The notes under the pieces: model-generated | What the model was told of the DNA's origin: nothing | What the model saw: the letters and a program-made list of their open reading frames with translations, nothing else | Databases searched by the model: none | Translations under genes and position numbers: made by a program | Part shown: positions 5,992-54,700 of the stretch, piece by piece | Layout of the letters: each line of letters starts with the position of its first letter | Position numbering within the stretch: position 1 is the first letter of the stretch | NCBI RefSeq assembly: GCF_037975245.1 | Contig: NC_092567.1 | Span: 15,679,876 to 15,743,875, forward strand | Direction: 5' to 3' | Length of the DNA: 64,000 nucleotides | DNA from: Apostichopus japonicus | Taxonomy: Eukaryota; Echinodermata; Holothuroidea; Aspidochirotida; Stichopodidae

Positions 5992-8900
5992 ATGACGTCA
6001 AATTATCTTTTGGGAGTTGCATTTTTCATTGCAACTGCTTTACCGACTAGCTATTCAGGTAAGTATTGAATTATTTGCTTTATCTTAACCGTAACTATAT
6101 GACACATTAGTTTATCTTAAAATAAAGGATGTTACTATACGACAGTAAAAGATCATCTTACTCACTTTAGAGTATAAATCTTTATATGATACTGGTTTTT
6201 AAATATAATAATGATGCTTATTAAGAATGACATTAAAATTTCTATAAATGGTCTTTTTAACAAAGCGTCGTCACTTAGATGTCCAGAAGAACTGTTTATT
6301 GAAGAAGGGAGCATCCACGTAGTCAACTGTTCACTCACCACGTCTACACTTACAGAGCTATACTGGTTCGTAGGAAATAGTACGAGCTCATTACCCATCG
6401 CGCAATTGGTATCTGGTGTCCAACACGTTTGGCCAGTGCAACACTACGATATCAGCGACGATGGTTCACTTATCATCAAGAGCGTTGGTCGTAATCAGAC
6501 AGGTCCTTACACCATCTTGCACTTCATGGAAGATGACGAGAAGGAACATGACACCGTGTATATAAATCTTATAGGTAATGATCATGTTATACAAGTAAAT
6601 ATGAAAGTCAGATCAATTTGATAAGATAAGATCTAGAAAACTGTTAGAATCAAACATCGAACATATTACATACCCGCTTACAATCATTTATCGAATAATC
6701 ATTCGAAAGTGACTGTTTTCCCATTACCTCTTGTTTGAAATTATTAGTGGCGATTCTTTTACTGACATGAATCAATGTAGTTGTTCCTCTGGCTTTGTAA
6801 ATACTCTACTTTCTGAAATTCAGCGAGCGGGTAGGATAATGAATCTTGTATATCACAAGATGCTTGTTTAATCTTCCTTATTCGATTTTGTTTTATTCCA
6901 TTAGAAGAGCCGTGTCCAATGATAGACCAGTGTACCTCATGTGAAGATTGTCTAATACAAGCCACTGAAGATCTAATATTTCTCACGTGCACTATCACCA
7001 GTCCAACCACAGAGAAAATATCACCAATCTGGACTTACAATAATGGAAGTATAATTCAAGGTCGAATACACGAAGAACGACTGTCGGATAATTCGTGGAA
7101 TGTCAGTGTCAGTTTGCACATTCAAAGCTTGAAATGTGGATTGACAGTTTTGCTATGCTCCAGTTCCATAAGAGGACATGATAAAACAGTAAGGGATGCT
7201 AGAGTAAATGTAACGTTTGGTGAGTGGTTTTTGTTGTATTGTTAGAATTTAGGTTATTATGTATAACCATTACTCAGACCCATTTATTTTATGTCATGTA
7301 ATGTTATGGTCAAACCTGATATTCTTACTTTCAGTGAAGTCAAAAACAGGAAGTGTCAAACTATGTCAAAGAGACATTCCAAACGGAATTTATTTGATTA
7401 CCAACACATATACGCGTTTAGTCAATTTCGACAAAAATAACTGGGATACTTTTTCGAACTATAATCTCGTGTCTAACCTATAGTTAATGCTGCCCTACAT
7501 AATGATGAACCTGATATGAAAGTTTACTTTTAGATTGAACATAATTTGTGCATGAAAAATCAGCTCAAAGCACCGTATTGCGTTCGTAACGTACATACAT
7601 GAGCACAGAGTTTAATTAGATGTAATAAGCAAGAAAGTGTCATAACGCATTCTGAATTAAGTTGTGTTAAGATTTCAGGTGTTTTGCAGTTTCATTAATT
7701 AGATGTGTAATTGGTCCAAGTTACGGGACAGCTAAAAAATCATCATTAAAATAATATCTTTCTTGTTTCAAATTTTCATTTAGATTTGTTTATATGTTTG
7801 TCTTTCTGTCACTGTCATTTACATTATATTTACTTATGAACCTATGCGTATGTTTTTTTCATTTCATATTAATAGTGTCATGTGATGATTTACAAATACC
7901 TGATGATGGAAATGATCCGATTCTCATTGTGACGTGCGTCATTGCAATCGTGATAATTCTTACTACGACTGTACTTATTGCACTGTATTGCGGTAAGTTA
8001 CTTTCTATTTAACAGTTTTACCATTCTATCAGAAAAAGAGAAAGAAAAATCGCAATGCTCACATTGCACAGAAAATAGATAAGCCAAAAAATATTAAGTG
8101 CAACAGGAGATGTATCTACATAAAGGCCCATGTTGCAGTTTACATTTATTCACATGTTGTATAATATCTTCCCGATCCCCTCTGGTAGGTCTACATGCAA
8201 AGTTGGTCGATAATTATAACAGTTCACTTTCTTACATTGTGCACATATTTTGTCATACAAAGGTTAGGGCATGTAGCACTAATACGTTGAAGATAAATGT
8301 TTTACAGGAGGTAATTACAAAATGCGAAGGCATCAAGTCATGAAATTCATGAAAGCATAATTCCTCCCAACAAGAAATAACTTTGGTAATAATAATTTTG
8401 GTAATGCTGTCGTTGGTTCAAGTTCATTTGCACAGTTTTCAAGTATACATACATTTCGTGGATAATGATTGATAAATCCAAGTATAAGAGACCTATTGTA
8501 ACGTTTACATTGCAGTAGATATCCACAGATTTAAGAATTGTGTATAGCCTCAGGTTTGCCCGATTGGTCATTGAATTTCAAAGCATGTTGTTACCTGCTA
8601 ACTTGCAATTTATGTAGTCAACCTTTCATCAAAAGATATGGTAGCTTTAACATATTGTTCTAATACACCTTTTGAAAAACCAAAAAATCAAGTGATCAAG
8701 TGATCAATGACAAACGTCACAATGAGACGCTTGAAGAATGGCAGCAATGAGTGATACACGAGTAACGAGAAAAAGCCGATCCAACAAGATCCTAAGAATA
8801 AGACCTTTAAAAGTGATCGAGATATTAACCAAATGGTAACAATCCTTAGCCTGCAATTGATGTGCTTGAAAGGAGGCTTAATGCGTTCAAAATGTTAAGA

Positions 8901-9004
8901 TATTAAATTACGTAAGATTGACAGTTTTTGTGATAAAAAGTACACCATTTCGATTTTTGATACTTTTGACTAATATGTGGCCAAAGATTACCTGAATTCT
9001 TTAT

Positions 9005-9043
<39 letters not shown>

Positions 9044-10192
9044 TTATTCTTGTCCATTTATTGATATCAACGAAGACTGTGTGATATGTTGTGAGTTCCT
9101 ATTTAATTTATCGAATTTCAAACAGGTCGCAGTTGCAATAGAAAGACGAAGAATGAAGATGAAGATGGAAAGGAAGATGAAGATGTAAGTTTGCTGAAAG
9201 CAAAGCTTTTCATTCATGTTTTAATTACAGCAATTACATTTAAGTTTTTCTAATTTGCATGTAAGCTCCAAGATTTTCATCACTGTGCAAGTAGCTTATT
9301 AGTTACACTATGGATGATACAAAATGAGCGATAGTAGCAGTTGTTACTCGTCGTTTGCATGTATCAATGTACAATACTATGATTGAAGCAAATGCTAGAA
9401 CAGAGGAAAATATCTCCACAATACAGATATCGCAAATAATTTACATTCGTGAGAGGAAAAAAATGTTAGAAAACTACTAATAAATACTGCAAACTGTTAA
9501 AATTGTTTCATAATCGACGGTGGTGACTACGATGTTCTGTTATGTCGATCTGTCTTTCACATTGAGTACGTTTGTTATTAATCTCACCTTTTTTGCAGCT
9601 TAAAGAAATCGAACCCTTGATCGACCGGTTCTTGAAGACACAGTTACAAATTGTAACTCCTAAAGGAGAACGGAAAGAGATGTCCGCTGCATCTTTCTTC
9701 AATTCTGATGTCGAATGGAAGAACACGAAGCGTATAATTTTTTTAGGGGATATTTTAACTGAAGAAACGCCGATTGTTAAACAGGCAAACTCGATGTGCT
9801 CTAAGGAGAACTACGATGAAACCCTTTTTATTGTTGATTTAAAGGAACTTAATTTTAAAGCAGATTTTGCTAAAGAAATTCATAAACAATTACCTCCAAA
9901 CAGCAAGTATTCTCTAGGTGAAGTAAATGACTTGTTATCGAGCAAGTGTTGGTTGATATTAGATGGTGGTGGTAAACCGTTGGAGCTACCGAAGCCTCCT
10001 GATTTGGAAGAAGATGTCGATGTAGATAAACTCACAACATTTGATATGTTATGTAAAAATGAGAATGATTTGCTAAGAGTTTGGGTTACTTCTTTACCTT
10101 CAGATCCTAGTAATTATTTCAAAGCTTATACGAAAATATATTTTCCGAAATCTAATGAAAATGAAACACAGAGCTCAATAACAAATCTTTGA
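5992..10192 (+). CDS. Ig-TM receptor with decayed NACHT domain
   Basis: Six exons with matching phases: 5992-6058, 6266-6574, 6905-7219, 7876-7992, 9126-9184 and 9599-10192, encoding 486 residues. Exon 1 encodes a signal peptide (MTSNYLLGVAFFIATALPTS). Exon 2 is an Ig-like domain (RCPE, VNCS, LYWF, DDGSLII, but QTGPYTILH where YxC is expected). Exon 3 is a second Ig-like domain with many Cys (about residues 131-230). Exon 4 is the membrane segment (about 246-268). Exon 5 is acidic (NEDEDGKEDED). Exon 6 (290-486) aligns with the NACHT exon of the 30094-42289 gene: KRIIFLGD, VKQ, EIHKQLPP, WLILDG, RVWVTSLPSD. The Walker A site reads GDILTEETP where the paralogue has GDIGCGKTS, so the Gly-Lys-Thr is gone. 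The Walker B region reads LILDGGGKP. The domain stops soon after the sensor region, with no winged-helix part. Binding of ATP is unlikely; a decoy or dominant-negative adaptor role is inference. Gene identity is strong; exon borders rest on splice consensus and phase. Confidence 0.84.
9008..9040. repeat. (AT)n microsatellite
   Basis: An uninterrupted AT dinucleotide tract of about 33 bp lies in intron 4 of the + strand receptor, roughly 90 bp upstream of its acidic exon 5. Confidence 0.95.
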
Positions 10193-22013: not shown

Positions 22014-22165
22014 CTTTTTAAGAAAAAGTCACCCAGGAAAGAACCTGGGCACGAAAACCAAACTACCAAACGACTGATCCGCTCTCAGCCCCAGTCCCCT
22101 TGCATCGGGACTGTGACTGTGTGATCATCGTCAGGTGTGTATCACCATATATGTATTTGTGAGGT
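22014..22165 (-). mobile_element. Copy of a structured SINE-like repeat (5' part missing)
   Basis: On the minus strand this matches the repeat at 47821-48010: the ACAGTCCCGATGCAAG stem region, a GCCCAGGTTCTTTCCTGGGT hairpin and a terminal GACTTTTTCTTAAAAAG. The U2-like 5' head is absent, as expected for a 5'-truncated retrocopy. Confidence 0.65.
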
Positions 22166-23844: not shown

Positions 23845-25325
23845 TCGTCTTTATCTTAGGATACAAGAAACCTCTGGAATAAAGTAATACCACATCTTGT
23901 TCATACTTTTTCTTATGAAAAGATCAGACTTTAAACTTTTCATTATAAAATTGATTATATCAAACTGCAATATTGTGGAAAGTTGTAAAGTCTTTCAATT
24001 GGTGTTCATAGAGTGCACTGTTTAACTCATCCCCGTAAGGTATGCAGTTTGCGTTATTAAACAGAATGTATATAGTGAGCTCAATGGAAATGTAAAAGTA
24101 ATTGTACGGGATTATGTAATTCTTGTGTGGAAGTAGATGCTAGGTAGACATGCAACATTGTCTTAGCTGGATTGGTCTCGTAATACTTGGTTAAAGTAGG
24201 TTCAATGAGGAATGGACAGCTTTCTGGTGAGATAAGAATAGAGGATAGCTAGCCTGCTCAGTTGGAGAGGGGCGTGAAAGTAACTCTTGGAGGAGACAGT
24301 TAGCAGTGTATTGTAATGTGGCGAATATCGCCTGTAGCTCGGTGGAGATGTTACTATCGTTACCCCTGGGGGAAATTACTTGGTAGGCCTAGGATGCCTA
24401 GCTCCAACAAGCACCACGCAAATTAAATGATTAAAAAGTTAAGATGATTTTAACATGATTTATTCTCTCCGGGATACAAATAATTGTTCAATTAAAAGCT
24501 GTAAAATTACTTGAAGATACTGCATGATTGGAAACAATTAATATGTATAAATTATTTGGCATCTTATACTGATCGTGAGAACTGGATGATTAAGTTCCAG
24601 GACTAATTTGCCTCTATAAAAAACCGGCTGATATCTGATCTGATCCATGATTGGTTCAAATATTACCTACTACTGTAAATGAACCAATCATGAGTAAGAA
24701 AGAAAACAACACGTGGTCCTAATTTATTCCTATGATTTTCTCTGTCTGAAAATACTGGCTCCTAAACTAAACGTCTGAAAATGGACCGAACAATTTCTAA
24801 TGTATTTCTTTGTTCGTACACCGTGGGAATTAACGAGGGGAGGCTCGAAGGTCAAAAGGTTAAAGGGTTAAAGACCTTGCAGGTGTTGGATAGGAACTTA
24901 AAGGGGCTAGAGTATCACTTTATGACAGTATTTCTATTGCAGAAGGATTATGCAATATTTCAACAGTGTATGAGAGTGTGCCATAGTTTTTACCCTGCAA
25001 GATAAGATCTCAAATATCTCTTGGAAGAAATATACCAGGTTCATTGTGATTATCTGTGGATATGGCTCTGTTGGTACTGATTGAACCAACGACACGTAAC
25101 TTAAACTTACAATCGACTAAACAAATAAGGGTAACACCCTAGTACAACTGAACAAGTAACCTTTTATTATATAAATATAAAAAAGCACTATACGACTAGT
25201 GCGTACATAACTCTCTAATGTTATTAGAGAATTACTAAACCTTGCAGGTTACGTTATTATTGATATAGAGGGAAATTCTCACCGGACTTGTTTTTTTCCT
25301 TTTTGTGTTTGCAAATAACTACGAG
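23845..25325. other. Region upstream of the transporter exon, no coding exon found
   Basis: The transporter exon at 25326 lacks its first membrane helices, so earlier exons should lie upstream, but none could be recognised here. A 74-codon frame at 24781-25005 is not hydrophobic and lacks family features. Confidence 0.45.
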
Positions 25326-26151
25326 GGAGCGAAGCACATTTAAAACTGCTGCAGTGCCCACTGACCCAATATTGCTCTGGCTCGGACCTGTTTTTCTGTT
25401 CGGTACTTTTTCTTGGTTATCACAAATCACGGTTTCGTTGTCTGTCTTCAGCATTGGCCCAGGCAACTCCGTAGCACTGACCTTCACCGTTACAATATTT
25501 TCCGTCATCTTTAGCGTCATATTTCTGAAAAGAGGATTCCAGGTCAAAGATTTTATATGCGCAATCTGTTCCACTGGTGGAGTGGCTTTAATAGCCATTA
25601 CAATCGATCAAGAAGAGTTGGTTATAGCCCAGTTTACCATACCGGTACCATACGGTATCATCTCGGCCCTCCTCGGAGCGATGACCTTCGCTGCCAGTTT
25701 CATCATTGGAAATCACCTAGCTTCATATGACAGTTCACACTCCATCGTAAATGTTCTCTCCTACGCATGTCAGTATTCTTTAGTTGCCTTGGTTCTGTGT
25801 ACATTGTTCAATGGATGGTCGATCCCCGAGACAACCCTGGATGTCCTCATTTTGACATCCACGGGTCTGACCACTTTTGGAGGAGTCTTATTCAGTTACC
25901 TTGCACTCGACAGTGAAAACCCCACAACCGTGTCAGTAATAATGACGTCACAGGTAATATTTAACTACGTTGGCCAATTCATATTCTTCGAGTATCGTTT
26001 TCACTGGGAGATACTTGCCGGGTCAATTCTGATTGTCGTATCGTGTATTGGAGTCCTGCTACGAGGCGAGGGCGAAGAGCATGAAAATAATGATAATGAA
26101 ACAAAATCTGACGATGGCCAACAGAACGAGCATCAACCAATTTTAGAATAA
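25326..26151 (+). CDS. SLC35G/EamA-type membrane transporter, 3' exon
   Basis: This is an open frame of about 275 codons ending in TAA at 26149, rich in hydrophobic helices. It shows the EamA (drug/metabolite transporter) pattern: a helix with ITVSLSVFSIGPGNSVALTF, then IFSVIFLKRGFQVKD and later VSVIMTSQVIFNYVGQFIFF. The second EamA-like half ends with IVVSCIGVLL, followed by an acidic tail. About seven or eight membrane helices are visible; SLC35G-type proteins usually have ten in about 350-400 residues, so the first pair is missing. The exon appears to start after an acceptor ACGAG| at 25325 (phase 2) behind a pyrimidine-rich run, so upstream exons are expected. Substrate is unknown; SLC35G members are orphan transporters. 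It could also be a truncated duplicate. It sits between the two receptor clusters with no evident functional link. Confidence 0.78.
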
Positions 26152-30093: not shown

Positions 30094-33000
30094 TCAGTTG
30101 TTATCAATAAACATAAGAATTCTTTTTTTCCTACCTGCATCGTTTTTATTTGATGATTTGCGAAAATCCCTCAATTTCTGCTCATCTGTGCTCACATATT
30201 TAGCAACACAAAGTTCTTGTATGAACTGGTGGCGACACCTAAAGCCATAACTAGTATTCGTGCTGTCCTTATCAAATTTACCTTCACCTGAATTAGGACA
30301 AATTTTCAGAATGCCGCACAACAAACTGATATCTCTTTTCCCTTCTTTTAGCTGCTCTATGGATAATGTATTCTCTTTTAGAAATAATCTGCCTATCATT
30401 AGTTCCATACTTTCAATGGCTGTAGCTGTTAGGATATGTTTCGTGACCACAACATGGCGTAGATAGAGACACTTTACGAGTCCTTTAATGATTGATGGAA
30501 AGGAAGTAAGATCGATACCGACAGTATGCTTGTTCATGATGCCATATTTGCTAGACACAAGAAGTTGAATAACAATCCCCATAAGAAGAGCATCTTCATC
30601 AAGTTTCAATAAATCATTTTTTTCAAGAATTGACCAAACTGAACGGCTTATAACATTAACATCATCATTACCATGTGGCTCTACCTCTGTTCCTCTGCTG
30701 AGTTCTTGGAAATTTTTAATTGGAAACTGAACTTGTTCCTTTAACGTTTTGTAGTAGATACACATTTGTTTTATATACGACTTTAAATCATCTTTTTCAA
30801 ATGATAAAAAGTTAACGACAGCGAATGAGTCACGGAACTGAGAAGGAAAACAGGGTCTCGAAGTCAACCAAATTCTTACATTATTATTGACTTCAGCAAT
30901 TTGAATAAACTTTTGAAACGTCAAATAACTTTGCTCACCACTTTCCTTGCGACCAAGTTTTGAATTTAAATCTGAAAATTCGTTACTGCCATCAAATATC
31001 AACAGACATCTTTCATTTTTAATAATGAACTCTATGTTTTCAATTTTGCAATCTTCTGGTAGCTGCTTTGAAATTTCCTCTGCCATATTTCCATTCAGAT
31101 TTGTATTTTGTAGGTTGAGGAAAAATAAAAATATTTCATCAGTTTTCATCTGCGAAAATAACAATGATACCTGCTTGACAAAAGAAGTCTTGCCACATCC
31201 AATATCTCCGACGAACAAAACACGTCTGACTGTTTTGCTCTTATCTGACTGAAAGAAAGAATAGGTAGACATTTGCTCCGTTTTTCCATCAGGCCATGTG
31301 ATAAGTACTTGCATCTCAGCGTAGAGGTTAGTATTTGAGATCAATTGGTCGTGTTGGATGGTCTTCTTTTCTCCGTCAGTGGCAAGAAAGTATTCTGGCC
31401 AAGGTAACGGTATCGGGCAGATATTTTGGTTATAAGCCTCCATTAGTGATGTCTTACCTAGGAAATAAAATGACGAGGTGGTGATGCTTATTACTGATGT
31501 GAGGAAGCTCCTTACTGTAAAACTCAAAATACTCTTAATTTTCTTCCCAAATAATTTGTATATAGGCTTGTGGATAGACTTGCAATATTACGTAATTTAT
31601 TTTTCCGAAGTTTAGTTCACGGTATTCTGTAAGCAAATTACATCTTCTCAATAAACTATTAAGTTACTTTTGCAAATGAATTTTCACGGTTGTTAGGTTA
31701 TGATAAAATCAAGAAGGAAATAAAAGGATTGAAGAAAATGTCACAAAGATGCTTGTTTACCAGGATGAAAACCTTTCTCTTCTGTATTCTGTTAACAAGA
31801 ATGTAAAATATAGGTTGTTATAGACAGGAAGGCTGGTACTACATTAGTATTTAACGTTGAACTTATATTTGTCTGATGAACTAAACGAAACATGTTGAAA
31901 AACTTATATGAGATGGACTGAAATCTGACGAAATATGTTGATTTTGTATTAAATATATTTGCCAACGAAAAAAGTTTGACTGATTGAATAAAATACATCA
32001 CCTGGTTACTTCCAGAGTCTTTAGCGCACCGAGCTAATGAAAAAAATATATATATAATAAACATTCTCTTCAAAATATGACAGCTTGGAATATCTCCTCG
32101 ACTTTTCCTCAAATTCGTACCTAAAAATAGTTAATTTAATAGCTGCTTAATATTTACGTACGTTTTTTGATAGACTTGCAATATTACGTAATTTATTTTT
32201 CCGAATTTTAGTCAACGATTTTCATTTAACTATTAAGTTACTTTTCCAATGAACTTTTACTCTTGTTAGGGAATGATATTATCAGGGAAAAAATGAAAGA
32301 TTGAAGGAAATGTAACAAAAGATGTTTATTTACCAGGATGTAAACCTTTCTCTTCTGTATTCTGTTAACAACAATGTATAATATAGGATGTTATAAACAG
32401 GTATATCTTATCACTTTTAAAAATATAGAAGGCTAGTACTTAATTTGTGTTTAACGTATAACCTATATTTTTCGGATGAACTAAACGACACATGTTGAAA
32501 AACTTAAATGAGATGGACTGAGTTCTGACAAAATATGTTGATTTTGTATTAAATATACCTGTCAACGAATAAGGTTTGACTGATTGAATAAAATACACCA
32601 CCTGGTTACTTCCAGAGTCTTTAGCGCTCCGAGCTAAGGAAAACAAAAATATATATAATAAACATTCTTTTCAAAATATGAATGCTTGGAATATCTCCTC
32701 GACTTTTCATCAAATTCGTACCTAAAAATAGTTAATTAAATAGCTGCTTAATTTTTACGTACGTTTGTTGATAGACTTGCAATATTACGTAATTTATTTT
32801 TCCGAATTGAAGTCAACGATTTTCGGTTAACTATTAAGTTACTTTTCCAATGACCTTTTACTCTTGTTAGGTAATGATATTATCAGGGAAAAAAGTGAAA
32901 AGATTGAAGGAAATGTAACAAAAGATGTTTATTTACCAGGATGTAAACCGTTCTCTTCTGTATTATGTTAACAACAATGTATAATATAGGTTGTTATAGA

Positions 33001-36000
33001 CAGGTATATCTAATCATTTTTAAAAATATAGAAGGCTAGTACTTAATTTGTGTTTAACGTATAACCTATATTTTTCGGATGAACTAAACGAAACATGTTG
33101 AAAAACTAAAATGAGATGGACTTAGTTCTGACAAAATATGTTGATTTTGTATTAAATATACCTGCCAACGAATAAAGTTTGACTGATTGAATAAAATACA
33201 TCACCTGGTTACTTCCAGATTCTTTAGCGCTCCGAGCTAATGACAAAAAGATGTAATAAACGTTCTTTTCAAAATATGACTGCTTGGAATATCTCCTCGA
33301 CTTTTCCTTAAATTCGTACCTAAAAATAGTTCATTAAATAGCTGCTTAACTTTTACGTACGTTTGTTGATAGACTTGCAATATTACGTAATTTATTTTTC
33401 CGAATTTTAGTCAACGATTTTCATTTAACTATTAAGTTACTTTTCCAATGAATTTTTACTCTTGTTAGGTAATGATATTATCAGGGAAAAAATGAAAGAT
33501 TGAAGGAAATGTAACAAAAGATGTTTATTTACCAGGATGTAAACCTTTCTCTTCTGTATTCTGTTAACAACAATGTATAATATAGGATGTTATAAACAGG
33601 TATATCTTATCACTTTTAAAAATATAGAAGGCTGGTACTTAATTTGTGTTTAACGTATAACCTATATTTTTCGGATGAACTAAACGACACATGTTGAAAA
33701 ACTTAAATGAGATGGACTGAGTTCTGACAAAATATGTTGATTTTGTATTAAATATACCTGCCAACGAATAAGGTTTGACTGATTGAATAAAATACACCAC
33801 CTGGTTACTTCCAGAGTCTTTAGCGCTCCGAGCTAAGGAAAACAAAAATATATATAATAAACATTCTTTTCAAAATATGAATGCTTGGAATATCTCCTCG
33901 ACTTTTCATCAAATTCGTACCTAAAAATAGTTAATTAAATAGCTGCTTAATTTTTACGTACGTTTGTTGATAGACTTGCAATATTACGTAATTTATTTTT
34001 CCGAATTGAAGTCAACGATTTTCGGTTAACTATTAAGTTACTTTTCCAATGACCTTTTACTCTTGTTAGGTAATGATATTATCAGGGAAAAAAGTGAAAA
34101 GATTGAAGGAAATGTAACAAAAGATGTTTATTTACCAGGATGTAAACCTTTCTCTTCTGTATTCTGTTAACAGCAATGTATAATATAGGATGTTATAAAC
34201 AGGTATATCTTATCACTTTTAAAAATATAGAAGGCTGGTACTTAATTTGTATTTAACGTATAACCTATATTTTTCGGATGAACTAAGAGACACATGTTGA
34301 AAATCTTAAATGAGATGGACTGAGTTCTGACGTAATATGTTGATTTTGTATTAAATATACCTGCCAACGAATAAGGTTTGACTGATTGAATAAAAATACA
34401 TCACCTGGTTACTTCCAGATTCTTTAGCGCTCAGAGCTAATGAAAAAAATGTAATAAACGTTCTTTTCAAAACATGACTGCTTGGAATATCTCCTCGACT
34501 TTTCATCAAATTCGTATCTAAAAATAGTTCATTAAATAGCTGCTTAATTTTTACGTACGTTTGTTGATAGACTTGCAATATTACGTAATTTATTTTTCCA
34601 AATTGAAGTCAACGATTTTCAGTTAACTATTAAGTTACTTTCCAATGAACTTTTACTCTTGTTAGGTAATGATATTATTAGGGAAAAAATGAAAAGATTG
34701 AAGGAAATGTAACAAAAGATGTTTATTTACCAGGATGTAAACCTTTCTCTTCTGTATTCTGTTAACAACAATGTATAATATAGGTTGTTATAGACAGGTA
34801 TATCTAATCATTTTTAAAAATATAGAAGGCTAGTACTTAATTTGTATTTAACGTATAACCTATATTTTTCGGATGAACTAAACGAAACATGTTGAAAAAC
34901 TAAAATGAGATGGACTTAGTTCTGACAAAATATGTTGATTTTGTATTAAATATACCTGCCAACGAATAAAGTTTTACTGATTGAAAAAATACATCACCTG
35001 GTTACTTCCAGATTCTTTAGCGCTCCGAGCTAATGACAAAAAGATGTAATAAACGTTCTTTTCAAAATATGACTGCTTGGAATATCTCCTCGACTTTTCC
35101 TTAAATTCGTACCTAAAAATAGTTCATTAAATAGCTGCTTAACTTTTACGTACGTTTGTTGATAGACTTGCAATATTACGTAATTTATTGTTCCGAATTT
35201 TAGTCAACGATTTTCATTTAACTATTAAGTTACTTTTCCAATGAACTTTTACTCTTGTTAGGTAATGATATTATCAGGGAAAAAATGAAAGATTGAAGGA
35301 AATGTAACAAAAGATGTTTATTTACCAGGATGTAAACCTTTCTCTTCTGTATTCTGTTAACAGCAATGTATAATATAGGATGTTATAAACAGGTATATCT
35401 TATCACTTTTAAAAATATAGAAGGCTGGTACTTAATTTGTGTTTAACGTAAAACCTATATTTTTCGGATGAACTAAACGACACATGTTGAAAAACTTAAA
35501 TGAGATGGACTGAGTTCTGACGAAATATGTTGATTTTGTATTAAATATACCTGCCAACGAATAAAGTTTGACTGATTGAAAAAATACATCACCTGGTTAC
35601 TTCCAGATTCTTTAGCGCTCCGAGCTAATGACAAAAAAATGTAATAAACGTTTTTTTTCAAAATATGACAGCTTGGAATATCTCCTCGACTTTTCCTTAA
35701 ATTCGTACCTAAAAATAGTTCATTAAATAGCTGCTTAACTTTTACGTACGTTTGTTGATAGACTTGCAATATTACGTAATTTATTGTTCCGAATTTTAGT
35801 CAACGATTTTCATTTAACTATTAAGTTACTTTTCCAATGAACTTTTACTCTTGTTAGGTAATGATGTTATCAGGGAAAAAATGAAAAGATTGAAGGAAAT
35901 GTAACAAAAGATGTTTATTTACCAGGATGTAAACCTTTCTCTTCTGTATTCTGTTAACAACAATGTATAATATAGGTTGTTATAGACAGGTATATCTAAT

Positions 36001-39000
36001 CACTTTTAAAAATATAGAAGGCTAGTACTTAATTTGTATTTAACGTATAACCTATATTTTTCGGATGAACTAAACGACACATGTTGAAAAACTAAAATGA
36101 GATGGATTTAGTTCTGACAAAATATGTTGATTTTGTATTAAATATACCTGCCAACGAATAAAGTTTGACTGATTGAATAAAATACATCACCTGGTTACTT
36201 CCAGATTCTTTAGCTCTTCGAGCTAACATAAAAAATATAATAAACATTCTTTTCAAAATATGACAGCTTGGAATATCTTCCGACTTTTCCTCAAATTCGT
36301 ACTTAAAAATAGTTCATTAAATAGCTGCTTAATTTTTACCTGGTTACTTCCAGATTCTCTAACGCTCCGAGCTAATGAAAAATAATCATAATAATATCAT
36401 TAAAAAACATCCCATTCATAATATGATTGCTTGGAAGACATTTTGAAGGTTTTCTGTGTTTAAATTATCCCAAGATTTCATACTTACTTGGGTTCCAATT
36501 GCGTAATAAACAACCATAATTGATACCGAGATATACTCATTAGGCGATCACATACATGTACATATTTCGTATCTATTAAAGGAAAAGATTTCGTATCAAT
36601 TGTATTTATTTGGTTTGCTAAACACAATTCCTATCATCATTTAGTTTATGAGTTTAGAAATAATGCAGTCTGGAAGTTCTTTTATTTCTGAAATTATGCA
36701 TTAACAGTGATAATTTTCGTTGATCAAAGTATGATATAATAGAACACAACTGGCTAAATGTTAACTTGTTTCAACATATTGACGTTATGAAACATACCAG
36801 GTTGACTAGCCCAAGCGCGATAAAACCCAATAACAAGAATGATGGCTAGAATTCCCGCTAACCACGCCAGTACTGAATAAAGTCCTGAAAGATAAAATAT
36901 TAGAAACTTTGCTGCCTCTTTTTACGTATTCATGGTATGCTACGTGGTATACATTTTGGGTAAGTATTAGTATAAGGGTTACCATATATCAGAATTCCCC
37001 GGATATGCTCTCATTTGGATTTATTAAGTTAGCGCCTGGGTGGACTTACAACCTTAAAACAATCTGGAATCTTTGTTAGACAACTTTGTAAGAATTAAAA
37101 CGTTTCTGTACCGAGCAGATCAATATCAGTTTTCCCACACGAAGAGGAGAAAGGCCTCCCCTAGCCCACCTTGTCCAACAGGCCGTGACAAATTCCATCA
37201 GATATAATTTGGTAACCATTAATGCGTGCTGATTCAGCCCTTACTTGCGTTTCATCCTACATGTCAAAATCTATGCTTGTTGGTCACAATTACTGTTTGA
37301 GGGATTATGTACGGCATCGACCATCAGACGTACATTAAGAAAAGTACAGAGAGACACATAAAATGCTTTATTTCTATTAGTCCATTTGAATTGTCCCGTG
37401 TGATTAATTCCTCACCGTATTTTCCTTAAAATACAGATAAAATGCAAGTCCGATACATCATCCGATACAAACATATGGAAGTACATTCTAATGAATGTTT
37501 AATGGAATATTTAAACAAAGTATTTATTGAAGAAACTTGTAAATAAACTATACGCACCCACATACTTGCACACAAAAGAAAGAAATGAAGCAACAACTTC
37601 AATTCTAACGGTGACCGCTTGTTTGACCATTTCCCCATCTGAAGAAACATGTTCAACAATGTATACGCCTTCCTGTTCACGACGAAGTTGGTTTATAATA
37701 AGTGAGCCGTCTTCTGTAATTCTGTAAATTTTACAGTTCGCCACTGACATTGTCCCATCTTCAATTTGTGCGACTGGGCTCGGGTGGGTTCCTTTGTACC
37801 ATTTCACGTTTCTCCCCACCAGGTTACAGTTGATGATTGCTGTACGTCCTTCTTCGTATGAAACAATGTCTCGACAAGTATGGAAGGAAGCTTGATGAGC
37901 AATAGAAAAGTAAAATGGTCGATTACAACTTAATTGGTATGGATTGGAAATAATATGCACCGTGGAGGCCTTTGAAGTATTAAAGTTTAAACCCACTCAG
38001 GTCAGTTAATATTGATTCGTAATAGAGTTTACAGCAATGAGAATCTTTTCAATTGAATCTCTCCGTCTGAGCTCAATCCTGTGTTGTGCCAAATAAACTT
38101 AACAATAGCACTCTCACTTTGCAATGTGTCGTCATTATAATTGATATTAATTTTAAACCCAAAACAAGTTTAAGGACATAAAAAGCGTTACCTCTTATAT
38201 AAACGTCGACCATTCTTGTTTGTTTTTCTCCATCTGGGGTTATATATTCAATATAATAGGATCCTTCTTGTTCATGACGAAGATGGTTTATAGTAAAAGA
38301 AACGTCTTCAGTAAATGCGTAAATGTTATTATCTGTCATTTGTATAGTTTCTTCTTCAGTTGTTGCAACAGGGTCTTGAGGAGCAGTTTCCCTGTACCAA
38401 TTGTTGATCAATCCACACCGGATCATGGCTTCACTTCCTTCCTTAGCTGAAACCGTTTTTGGACAATTAAGGTTCGAAGCTGTAAAGATATTTTCTAAAC
38501 CAGAAATAGAAACTGAGAGATCGTATGTGATTTCGCCGATATTGTGCCAAGTGAGTCAAATTATAATTACAATTATTCAAAAATAAAACGATCTTGAAGT
38601 TGTTTTCAAGGTAAAGGAAACGTAGAAGCTAGTTTATTTATTTAAAGCGTGTTCATCAAAATACTTTAAGCAGTCCTTTAGGAAATATACATTCCTGTCG
38701 CTTAAGTTGCTTTCTTTGCCAAAAGTTAATTTGAAAATTGAGTAGTTTATAAACGCGTGTTGGCAATACAGCATATGAACTGAAATAATTATAAAGTTTA
38801 CGCCTTTGTGCAGACACAAAACGAATTTTGTTTTATATCATTTCAATCAACTGATAAAATTTGAATAGTGTTAATACAATGAAGAAAGTAAGTAATGTTG
38901 GCAACAACTCGAACCATATATAGTCGACGTTAAACACAATTCATTTGGATGAAATATCCACCGTCCATTGTTGCTATTAGGTTTGTTTTAATCCGCAGTT

Positions 39001-42000
39001 GATTGTCAGTGCACTTCCTTCTACATCAGTTATTTCTTGTGGGCATTGGAAGGAGTAAGCTTTAACAGGGACACACATATATATATGTATCTATAGCTAT
39101 AAATAAAGCCTTTTATTGTATCAAAACCAAGTGGTACTATGTGTGAAATACAATGTATTTAATATACATTTCACTAGTATCTTTTCAGGCTAGCGATATA
39201 TATATGATATGATAGACTATATGTAAATGGTAAAGTATATGTCCCTTAAATTGTTATTCGTACAATACAGACATTCCCACGCATTAAAGGATTCATTCAA
39301 CAACAAATTCATCAAGACGACATTTTATCTCTCAAGGTAAAAACTAGCGTAATATTATTGATATATGGCAGAAGTACCTCTGAGTTTAAGAGCCAACGTA
39401 GATCTCTCTTTGGTTCCATCAGATTCAAGATGCTCTATAGTGTAGAACCATTCTTGTTCATGTTGGATATTCTTTATGACAAGAGACAAGTCTTCTTTTA
39501 TATCGTAAATATCTTGTCTCCCTATTAGTGTCGTTCCAATTATAGCTTCTGCAATTGGTTTCGTGTAAGGAGTGGTACCAAAATACCATTTACCGTTGGC
39601 CTTTCCTTCCATTCCACAGTTGATAATGACTTCACTACCTTTTTTTACTAACATATCCTCTCGACATTTGAATATGGCAGCTGTGCCGAGAAAAAAAGAA
39701 AACCAATGATGTCATTTATTTTCCTGTTGAATTGTAAGGAAGAACATCACATTAACACGAATCTCTACTTATTATTCGTTACCCTTAAAGGCTTGCAAAT
39801 TAAAACAGACGCTCTGTATGATTTAATTTGCATCATCATTCTGTCCGGCATATTACTTCTTCATAGCTTCATCACATTCAAATAAAAGTTTTTTTTTGTC
39901 TACATTAGAAATCGAGTAGACTGTCAACCGAAATATGCTTTTGAGTAAGTTATACTTATCTAACTTCTTTTTTATTAGAACAAGTCATTAAACAGAAGAG
40001 AAATGCGATTTCACTTTGTAATCAAAATTAAAGAATATAACACTTCTAAGCATAAGCAATATCAATTTTTAAGTCACAGTGAACTTGAATTTTGAATGAT
40101 CTATTACAAAACTAATGAACATAAATTTTCATCTCAGAGTGTCCCAATTGAGTAAAAACGTTAAAATGATGATAATACCCAAATATCCTCGAAGCATAAC
40201 CCCGCCGTTCGTTGCTATTATTGTGGTTAAAGGTGTCAAAAGATAGTAGATGTACCAATGAGATAACACGAATGATAGTAATAGAAAGTGTACGTAGTAC
40301 ATTGAACAACACCACGAGTATTAACCAAACGGATCTGATGCATAGCAAACTTCACACGCAGGTTTTTTTAGCAGCATGAACCAACGCGTTATTTCAGGAC
40401 AGCATGTAGCATAGGACACTAACATAACGGTCACTGACATGTACCATTTATACTTACTACACTACATTGTGTGTACTAAGCTATGGGTAGTGTACAATTG
40501 AGTCGGTACCTCACACAAGGACAACTCCACCGAGGAGAAAGCTCAAGCAAACAGTTACATTTGAAAGTTTTATGATTCCTTTATAACCTAACATGGAACA
40601 TATTTGATCAGACGGAAATATGTGTGAACCAGGACTTGAAACTTGTCTTAGCGTAGGCAGCTGAGATTACACTTACCTATCTAATTTCGTCTTTTTGAAC
40701 TAATATTCATTCGCCGGTTTACTATCCATTTTCTAAAAAAAAGGTCAGTTGACGAAACCACGGGCCAATCAGATTCGATCATTTTTAACAAATAGGAATG
40801 AACGACTATTACACAGAGTAAATTAGACAATACAACTAGCGTACATGGAGATTAAAGATCTACATCTTGCATTATGCGAGTGCCGCATTATCCTACTTGT
40901 GGTTGAACCGTACTAGAGTAGATACTACACCCAACTGCGGTTTACATTGCTGACATCGCATCACGTGTGATCGACTTACTCATGTCACAGATGGTGGCTT
41001 CGTTTGGAGTTAAAGCAGCACCGGACAGAGGTACAGACTTCTTTATGTGATTAGAGGTACATCATTATTTGTTGGGATACGATATTTGCTAAAAGGGACC
41101 CGCCTTGATAGAGGTCTAGTGCAAAAGTCGCCGGAACACGCACAATTTGAGGATGTTTTGTGTCTTTCCTTTTCATTGATACGAATGTGGTTAGACATTG
41201 GTAATCAAAACGGTGCCATGACCTGCAAGGAATGGGTACTCGTCTGATGACTTATCCTATGTGAATGGTAACATGTCTGTCTAGTAAGTTTGATATTCGT
41301 ACCATATAGACATGCCCACGCATTAAAGGGTTCATTCAACAACAAATTCACCAAGACGACATTTGATCTCTCAAGGTAAAGTCTGCGTGAAATAAAATGT
41401 ATTGCAAAAGTACCTCCTATTTGAAGAGCCAACGTTGATGTCGCTTTGGTTCCATCAGATTTAAGATGCTCAATTGTGTATGATCCTTCCTGTTTGTGTT
41501 GAACATTCTTTATAACAAGTGATGCATCTTCGTTTATGTCGTAAATATTGTAGTCCCGTATAAGTATTTTTCCATTCACAATTTCTGCGATGAGGCTGGA
41601 GTGGGGAGGGGTTCCGAAATACCATTTGCCATTGGCATTCTCTCCTAGTGAACAGTTGATACTGACTACACTTCCTCTTTGGACTAATACATCTTTTGGG
41701 CATTCCAAAGAAGTAACTATTCAGGTAAAAAGCACCAAAAGTGTAATTTATTACAGTTTTACAACATCAGTTAAATAAATTAAATACAAAACAAGATAAA
41801 TCAGCAAACATTTGTCTACAGCGATACCAGTCCCATTTGTTGTAACACATCACACAATTAACAAAAGTAAAAAAGAAAATACGGCTTTCCGGTTTATTTT
41901 ACATCGTTATTCCGTCCAAATTACTTCTCATATTTTTTTTCTAGACAATTTAACGAAAATGATTTTAGCAGGAAATCTTTTATTTCAACAAGCAGAAAGT

Positions 42001-51700: not shown

Positions 51701-54700
51701 CAAGTAGCGGTCTCGTACACAATCTATACATAAGCTTTCTCGAAGGTAGTTGTTCACCTTCATCTTAAATTTTAGATATATAATTGAGAAAATGTTACTT
51801 GAGCAACCGTTTGTCACCCTTGGCAAATCAGCTTCCGAGTTGCAACACAGTACTCTATAAATCCGATATTGAATATTTAAGTTTACATAATGATTTAGAC
51901 TAGAATGACTCATCCTTCTAAATAATATAAGTTAGAGAAAAAAGAAATCACTTCATGTTTCTCTTTGGATATCAAACTAAAGTATCAAGTGACAGACTGT
52001 TTTTTTTGGGCAGACGAAAAAGTTCTAATAATTACCTTTCTTAGTTCTTCTTCTACTTTTGGTATCGCCATATCTATCGGTCGGATGTCGTATAGTTTGC
52101 AGAGCCCGTCTCCGGTCAGAAGGACTTTTCTCAAGCATAGCACTGGATGACAAAACTTGACAAGAACAATTACATCACAAGCAATTTTCTCAATGTTCTG
52201 ATACCCTCTTTGTAATGCACATTAAACCTAGACGGTGCTCATCGCACCCAATGCAATCATTCACATCATACACAAGAAAACAACCGAACTGTTATTGCTT
52301 AGAGTCCGATGCAAAATTGTATAACTCATAGTTTTTCATTAAAAAATAGATCCAACCAAAAGATGTTATACACACGATTTGAGTGCCATACATTTCACCA
52401 ATGGATATTACTGTCAGTATAAAACTGTTAAATTACGTAACTAAATACGTTGGTTAGTACGCCAAATACATTGCAACAATTGTTTGGTTATGTAACTATT
52501 AACAAATACCTATGTAGGCCTATGTTTTTAAGTACCTTTTGCGACACAAGGAATTCCATTCCTTTCACAATATCATACGAGAATCCAAGAAGTTCTTCGA
52601 ATTGTTGTTCAGCTTTCGTTGCAAATCTCGAAAACTTCTCTTCCACCTCAGAGTACCGAGCCAGAATGAAATTTTGCAGGGAGCCATTTTCCAGATATTC
52701 GTAATATATTGTATATGGAACTGTAATAAAGTTGAGTAGTTCACGAAATTCAATAATGGTCTGCATTCTGCGAATAATTGACAGCATTTTATATGAACTT
52801 TGTCATTTACTTGAACCACAGTTCAACTAATAAACATTAACATTGGTGCCTTCAAGGTTTGTCTCTTTCATGATGTTAACTTCAACACGGTGACTAATAT
52901 TGCTTATATTATATATGTATTATATATATATATTATATATGATATATTATATTATATATGTTATATTATATTATATATATATATTATATATGTTTTATCC
53001 ATAACTCGACATATTGTTATGATGATTCCTATTTTGACAAGCTAACCACCCGGGCCCGTTAATCCTATTGTTGGAGCACAGCAAACGATGTGTGATATCA
53101 AATATTCTAGTATTCATGATGACTCATCAATGGAATGTTATACATTTGGAATGTGTGCTCAGCTGTTAATCAGTGCTGTATGTATTTACATAGATAAGAA
53201 ATGGGTTTTACCCATTTTGTTATTCAAACTCATATGGAATATCCGTCTCTGCAAGTTAACAATGCATTAGTTAATGTAAAACACGAAAGGTCACATGATT
53301 AGAAGATGACACTATTCAACTTATAACAGGATAGAATCCGAACTTGGTGGTTTGAGTGTATGCCTGGTCGTTTGCTATACTGCGTCATTTGAGTTATGAC
53401 GTCATGCATAGGTCATAGCTCATATAACCACAAAGCAGCACTTTGGCTATTACAAATCTACCGAATGACACAATGTTCGGAATCACAATCCAATGTGGGA
53501 TATCTGAAGTTATCAATACATGAATTAATGTAAAATGCAACATGTGATTACAGAAGATCAAAGGTCACAATTAGCTGAGACTGCGATATTTTCACTTGCA
53601 AACATAATGGTGTCATAAGTTAATGATGTAGGGAAATGCAGATTAAAGAATAACATATAGCTCATCAAGATAGACTCTTTAAATTTCACCGAGCTGCCTA
53701 ATGCAATTTATTATTTTAGCCTAATGTGGGTATTCTGAATGATATGAGAAGGAATAAGTAAAACAACTTACACTCAGTAATCGAAATGAATAAACATTCC
53801 ACTATATGAGGATGAATCCGAAGGCTTTTAATACTTCTTGCAACGCGTTGGAAATTTCGAGCATCCTCTATGCTACATATCTCTGCAAAAGATATAAATA
53901 TGGTCATAATTCCGAGTTCTTTTTCATAATTAATTAATGTATCACTCGTACGCTAACTTCATTACGCATCTGCGGTTTGTTTAATATCAATCAGCAATAT
54001 GTTTAGCCAAGCAACAAGTGCATTACACTTATTGCCATGTTTGATTCGTTTCTATCTGGTATTCCTTCTAGTCATTCTCAATAATTTAAAGCAGTGCAAG
54101 TCGCTTGATAGTTTGGACGTTATTTAGCATGTAGTTACTCGACATCGAGAATTGTAAAAAAGACCCCTTTTAATTATCATTTGCATACTATGTAGTCATG
54201 CAATTCTTGATTAAAATGTTTGGCAAAACTGCTACGAAAAAAAGTCCGTTTACATATCTCGCCTGGCTGATTGATATTGTGTTGATCAATTTCAATTTAA
54301 AACTATCTTTCAAATCAACACTTTTGTCAAGCTGATACTTACCCCGTAGGCTTTTGGCAAAACAAGTATGTTCTTTCCTGTCTTTGGTTCGAAAGTTACC
54401 TCGACGATATTCAAACAAACAGCCAACATCAACGCACGGTTCAGAGTAAATAGGAAATTTGTAGTTTGCCATGATGCTTTGTCTCTTTCGAACAAGAGTT
54501 GGTGATGCGTCCGTAGTAACGTCAAGGTCAACTGTGACAGAACCTAGTAAATGAAAGATAGCATTCAGTCCATGTTGTAGCTGACTGCATTTTCGATTTC
54601 TCTTTTGTTTTGAACAAGATGAACGCTTCGAATTCCTGGCCGAGAATACAGTCAGAATCATTAAGAAGTCAAAAACAGAAAACCGTACACTGTATATTGT

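Follow-up and report, generated by a model that had tools for sequence, protein, structure and literature searches.

A tandem array of candidate small exon pairs between the membrane and NACHT exons of an immunoglobulin-type receptor gene in the sea cucumber Apostichopus japonicus

Reports exist on sea cucumber proteins that combine immunoglobulin (Ig) domains, a transmembrane (TM) helix and a NACHT domain. AjNLRC4 of Apostichopus japonicus has been described as a membrane receptor with an Ig ectodomain, a TM helix and an intracellular NACHT domain, binding microbes via its Ig domain (PMC8699970). AjNLR-new, from the same species, has been reported as an Ig-TM-NACHT protein to which the authors assign two TMs and an extracellular NACHT (PMC13133943). 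The word "exon" has 0 occurrences in the main text of PMC8699970 and likewise 0 in that of PMC13133943. We describe here a gene on the minus strand of a 64,000-nucleotide stretch of A. japonicus DNA (contig NC_092567.1, positions 15,679,876 to 15,743,875; hereafter the window), in which a tandem array of two exon-like pieces, A of 32 nucleotides (nt) and C of 28 nt, lies between the TM and NACHT exons. The gene has the same Ig-TM-NACHT architecture as AjNLRC4; it is also like AjNLR-new, but differs from the two TMs and extracellular NACHT reported for that protein. Two-exon tandem units of changing repeat number are already known from the kringle IV type 2 (KIV-2) repeat of LPA, a coding tandem repeat with a two-exon unit whose repeat number has been measured at the protein level (PMC11201333). 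The array is like KIV-2 in its DNA, where tandem units carry the same exon-like pieces and balanced pairs keep the reading frame. The KIV-2 unit as described there codes for a kringle domain, with proof at the protein and population levels, whereas the present units hold candidate exons of 28 and 32 nt for a receptor linker. Very short exons, of 3–81 bp, have been reported in schistosome micro-exon genes, which encode secreted flatworm proteins and, in the account of PMC10526429, include no tandemly copied exon pair between receptor domains. The original prediction held that no described receptor has such an array. Within the open-access literature, under narrow search terms, no NACHT receptor with such an array was found, and to that extent the claim stands; the Ig-TM-NACHT architecture itself had been described, in AjNLRC4.

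The TM-to-NACHT interval consists of eight head-to-tail units of about 598 bp with nine copies of A and eight of C on the minus strand, which recovers the repeated 32-nt and 28-nt pieces first proposed for this locus. The copies were located by a script allowing up to 8 mismatches on both strands of the window; all lie within 31761-36371, and the plus strand of the window contains neither A nor C under the same settings. Unit length is 593–604 bp in seven units, while the last extends 576 bp up to the NACHT exon (578 bp in the alignment, two bases of the NACHT exon included). Identity between units is 92.6–95.4% at offsets of one to six units and 88.4% at seven, and units 1–7 mutually differ by 1.4–5.1%. 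Matches at every offset up to seven units are what unequal exchange would be expected to leave after amplifying a unit in tandem. The array is absent from the output of Tandem Repeats Finder, whose longest period is 500. All nine A copies have an AG acceptor and a GT donor; C has the acceptor in seven of eight copies and the donor in all eight, the exception being C32937, with AT for AG. Splice sites are thus kept in almost every copy, as had been claimed. The earlier account had missed this lost acceptor, the absence of a C between the first two A copies (A36340 and A36191), and the maximum of seven in-frame pairs given below. The features of the gene, in its own 5' to 3' order, are as follows.

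37595-41711 (approximate span), minus strand: Ig-type exons, four and one fragment, by Pfam and BLAST similarity
36798-36884, minus strand: membrane (TM) exon, 87 nt, phase 1-1, open translation, end ...AIILVIGFYRAWASQP/G, acceptor TTTCAG, donor GTATGT
36340-36371, minus strand: A copy 1, ARSVRESGSNQ, extra A without its own C, truncated unit, donor context differs (gtaaaaatta)
36191-36222, minus strand: A copy 2, ARRAKESGSNQ
35923-35950, minus strand: C copy 1, NTEEKGLHP
35593-35624, minus strand: A copy 3, consensus ARSAKESGSNQ
35326-35353, minus strand: C copy 2
34998-35029, minus strand: A copy 4
34731-34758, minus strand: C copy 3
34405-34436, minus strand: A copy 5, ALSAKESGSNQ
34136-34163, minus strand: C copy 4
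33801-33832, minus strand: A copy 6, ARSAKDSGSNQ
33533-33560, minus strand: C copy 5
33205-33236, minus strand: A copy 7
32937-32964, minus strand: C copy 6, acceptor AG lost (AT), K to N
32602-32633, minus strand: A copy 8, ARSAKDSGSNQ
32334-32361, minus strand: C copy 7
32002-32033, minus strand: A copy 9, ARCAKDSGSNQ
31761-31788, minus strand: C copy 8, NTEEKGFHP
30135-31457, minus strand: NACHT exon, 1323 nt, phase 1-1, Pfam NACHT E 1.7e-12, first residues GKTSLMEAYNQ, 3' end presumably at the GTAGGA donor

The gene is predicted to encode a membrane immune-type receptor with Ig domains, a membrane anchor and a NACHT domain. Pfam V-set was found on two of the four Ig exons tested, one of them above the cut-off, and the remaining two matched no family and are recognized by BLAST similarity only. 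A crude pattern count of two Ig exons was set aside, as BLAST shows four. A TM helix lies between the Ig and NACHT parts, with a mean hydropathy of 2.47 over 19 residues (a hydropathy calculation and not a topology predictor), and the NACHT exon has a Walker A motif, GDIGCGKT (P-loop), together with LLIFDG. A P-loop NACHT, upstream Ig-type domains and an intervening TM helix, the combination known from AjNLRC4, are therefore all present in the sequence.

The pieces fit the gene in which they lie. A runs from phase 1 to phase 0 and C from phase 0 to phase 1, and the TM exon ends (residues ...RAWASQP/G, nucleotides CCT/G) and the NACHT exon starts in phase 1, so that one A-C pair of 60 nt, or 20 residues, reading ARSAKESGSNQNTEEKGLHP, is in phase with both neighboring exons. 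The proposed sum and phases were thus reproduced, and the array lies in the TM-to-NACHT interval of a single Ig-TM-NACHT gene. A lone A (32 nt) or a lone C (28 nt) shifts the frame, and use of both A36340 and A36191, with no C between them, would break it. Because of these adjacent A copies and the dead acceptor of C32937, at most seven balanced pairs could be spliced, and the largest in-frame product has seven pairs, or 140 residues. The 16 spliceable copies can be included in 65,536 combinations; 21,845 of these have a length that is a multiple of three, 3,631 remain open over the 1,158 nt tested in the NACHT exon, and 1,419 alternate strictly between A and C, the empty pattern included. Entered in either wrong frame, the NACHT exon meets a stop within 15 nt.

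Whether such a pair could arise by chance was judged from splice scores, calculated with generic matrices and with thresholds fixed after the unit had been seen. At thresholds just under their own scores, A and C are the sole candidate exons of 20–60 nt in unit u2, and the opposite strand has none. A comparable frame-balanced open pair was present in 6 of 3,589 random 638-bp windows taken outside the array from the same 64 kb at the thresholds set by the unit, and a balanced pair in 0.1% of 3,000 first-order Markov controls. With slightly looser thresholds, six of the seven units tested had one such pair, the exception being the unit whose C is dead, and none of the seven had a candidate exon on its opposite strand. 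In a second control run, balanced pairs occurred in 6, 25, 135 and 557 of 1,500 windows at successively looser thresholds. Support for the pair depends on the threshold, since the control counts rise with loosening: the pair is unusual at its own splice quality and not at low quality. Donor scores of A (2.3–4.3) are similar to that of the TM donor (3.9), and those of C (1.6–1.9) are weaker.

The explanation that we favor, with about even chances of being right, is that A and C form a genuine small exon pair, recently amplified, that provides none to seven linker repeats in some transcripts; the use of A and C as exons in some transcripts is itself put at about one half. A and C would be a small exon pair of the TM-to-NACHT interval, of which A at least would predate the array, and the stretch bearing the pair would have been amplified recently to eight units, most simply by unequal exchange. 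Joint splicing of A and C would keep the frame and insert 20 polar residues per pair between the membrane and the NACHT domain, the repeats presumably being cytosolic under the predicted topology. With acceptor scores as low as those given below, and exons of 28 and 32 nt, inclusion is expected to be incomplete, and the pair number may hence vary among transcripts from none to seven. Entry into the NACHT exon in a wrong frame would meet a stop and lead to a NACHT-less product or to decay.

The strongest competing explanation, which we consider a serious contender although short of an even chance, is an intronic tandem duplication only, in which A and C are exon-like by chance or decayed and the messenger RNA joins TM straight to NACHT. 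A number of observations weigh on this side, against the use of A and C as exons. Exons and the rest of the unit vary equally in units 1–7 (variable sites 5/60 vs. 37/433, p 1.0), and the counts in units 1–8 are 7/60 vs. 86/405 (p 0.12). Eight of the nine distinct exon changes in the array alter an amino acid, compared with 74 of the 96 possible single changes in A. Acceptor scores are at most 0.3 in seven of nine A and in all seven scorable C copies, as against 4.5 for TM and 5.4 for NACHT; one C acceptor is dead, and the two first A copies are adjacent. The 557 of 1,500 control windows that contain a balanced pair at the loosest thresholds belong here, as does the second frame of the repeat, which is also largely open; as a coding frame it was rejected for its stops in A34405 and in the NACHT exon. 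Overall, we lean towards weak or no constraint on individual copies. On the other side, a balanced open pair is rare in the controls at matched thresholds, and the splice dinucleotides are intact in nearly every copy, both of which count against intronic duplication. In unit 8, the most diverged, private changes affect 2 of 60 exon sites and 53 of 405 others (p 0.03).

Paralogs provide further evidence on both sides. Three close relatives of the NACHT exon lie on its own contig (C7) and strand, at C7:15543684 (83%), C7:15668215 (87%) and C7:15617526, where the match consists of two overlapping pieces (81% and 83%) with one TGA. A scan of 20 kb per paralog on the minus strand, with at most 10 mismatches allowed in A and 8 in C, revealed neither A nor C at C7:15543684 and C7:15668215, and at C7:15617526 two A-like pieces with an acceptor and no C. 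A whole-genome DNA search with the unit and a degenerate C exon found no second array, and A-like and short intron pieces in paralogs. The presence of A with its acceptor at C7:15617526 favors a genuine exon. One of the two copies there departs from the array consensus at three sites, one of them at a duplication junction, and none of these changes alters the residue when read in the claimed frame (chance 0.013); such synonymous-only change speaks against intronic duplication. Other results from the paralogs count in favor of it. In the second A copy of the same gene only one of four changes is synonymous, three lying in altered codons, and both copies have lost the donor. Identity of paralog A to the array was similar to that of its flank in one pair (29/32 vs. 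87/102, p 0.56), and none of 18 exon-versus-flank comparisons was significant (p 0.24–1.0). At the search sensitivities applied, no C turned up beyond the array. The paralog at C7:15543684, which lacks A and C, looks intact: its NACHT frame is open, and about 420 bp, with splice signals that match, separate TM from NACHT. Its natural product would be a direct TM-to-NACHT join, so the linker would be dispensable in that gene.

The history of the pair in the cluster can be read in two ways. One stretch of the unit is missing from C7:15543684, and another, shared stretch from C7:15668215 and from the last interval of C7:15617526, which suggests that all four genes shared an ancestral A-C that was later lost. 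The state of C7:15543684 would be explained equally well by an insertion in a common ancestor of C7:15617526 and the window gene. At C7:15668215 the CAGG of the TM acceptor is replaced by CCGG, and this acceptor appears lost. Like the window gene, C7:15617526 belongs to the cluster and shows tandem exon amplification in the same interval; it amplifies the TM exon, whereas the window gene amplifies A-C. Its seven tandem TM-like exon matches, one of them partial, lie at C7:15619498-15623058 and are of two kinds, the second three residues shorter and, by eye, less hydrophobic. The sister genes, as predicted from their DNA, differ in which module is amplified. The sister gene C7:15543684 has 13 Ig-exon BLAST matches (C7:15546190-15558596) against the four and a fragment in the window gene, and the predicted ectodomain size differs strongly between paralogs; at C7:15668215 and at C7:15617526 (20 kb each), BLAST listed no Ig match below E 0.6.

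Returning to the amplified exon pair that we favor, a more specific form is that the array sets the membrane-to-NACHT distance in steps of 20 residues, individuals varying through unequal exchange and transcripts through splicing, with unbalanced splicing switching NACHT off. This is unlikely as it stands, and that linker length would tune the reach of NACHT, as first proposed, is equally doubtful. A little less probable again is a frame switch, in which unbalanced inclusion, for instance of both A36340 and A36191 or of an A paired with a dead C, would put NACHT out of frame, leaving a receptor of Ig and TM parts only or causing the messenger to decay. The early stops in both wrong frames, the small share of inclusion patterns that read through the NACHT exon and the frame shift caused by a lone A or C are what such a switch predicts, but any asymmetric exon would act in this way, and the stops could be chance. 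An assembly artefact in the number or existence of the repeats, to which tandem repeats are generally prone, is very improbable, given the differences of 1.4–5.1% among units 1–7 and an array of about 4.8 kb, short for the HiFi reads by which the published assembly is stated to have been made (PMC10344927).

AjNLRC4 is probably the gene at C16:4497304, because its EX-F primer matches there (one mismatch in 25) and a NACHT exon follows. A search of 20 kb at this locus did not turn up the EX-R primer, and the one EX-F-bearing frame tested gave no Pfam family; one primer and the gene order are thus the basis for the identification. It is a gene distinct from the window gene and is not among the NACHT-exon matches listed; about 1.4 kb separates its TM and NACHT open frames, with no direct repeats of at least 30 nt there. 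Both AjNLRC4-IN primers in Table 1 of PMC8699970 have their exact matches at C14:1474164-1477174 rather than in the Ig-TM-NACHT gene on C16; an error in the table is possible, which bears on the intracellular-domain constructs. The C14 locus has PB1, ZZ and UBA domains. We take it to be p62/sequestosome-like.

Elsewhere in the window, a plus-strand relative at positions 6190-10192 contains a weak V-set exon, below the Pfam cut-off, and a NACHT-like match with two TGA; its frame 9566-10192 has no Pfam family, and among the matches listed there are eight such plus-strand NACHT-like matches on the contig, this one included. Direct repeats of at least 60 nt in window positions 1-31000 are limited to one unrelated two-copy family, at 22054 and 23551. 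An exon of an EamA-type transporter (Pfam E 2e-14) lies at 25264-26148 on the plus strand, and an open frame at 52488-52802 on the minus strand resembles, by eye only, a portion of a tyrosine kinase domain.

Should A-C pairs prove to be spliced in, this one gene would offer cytosolic receptor linkers of naturally graded length and a test case for the importance of the spacing between NACHT and the membrane. Splicing of the pairs would further point to a diversification of these receptors in which sister genes amplify different exon modules (Ig, membrane, linker); three of the four sister genes each show one such module difference in their DNA.

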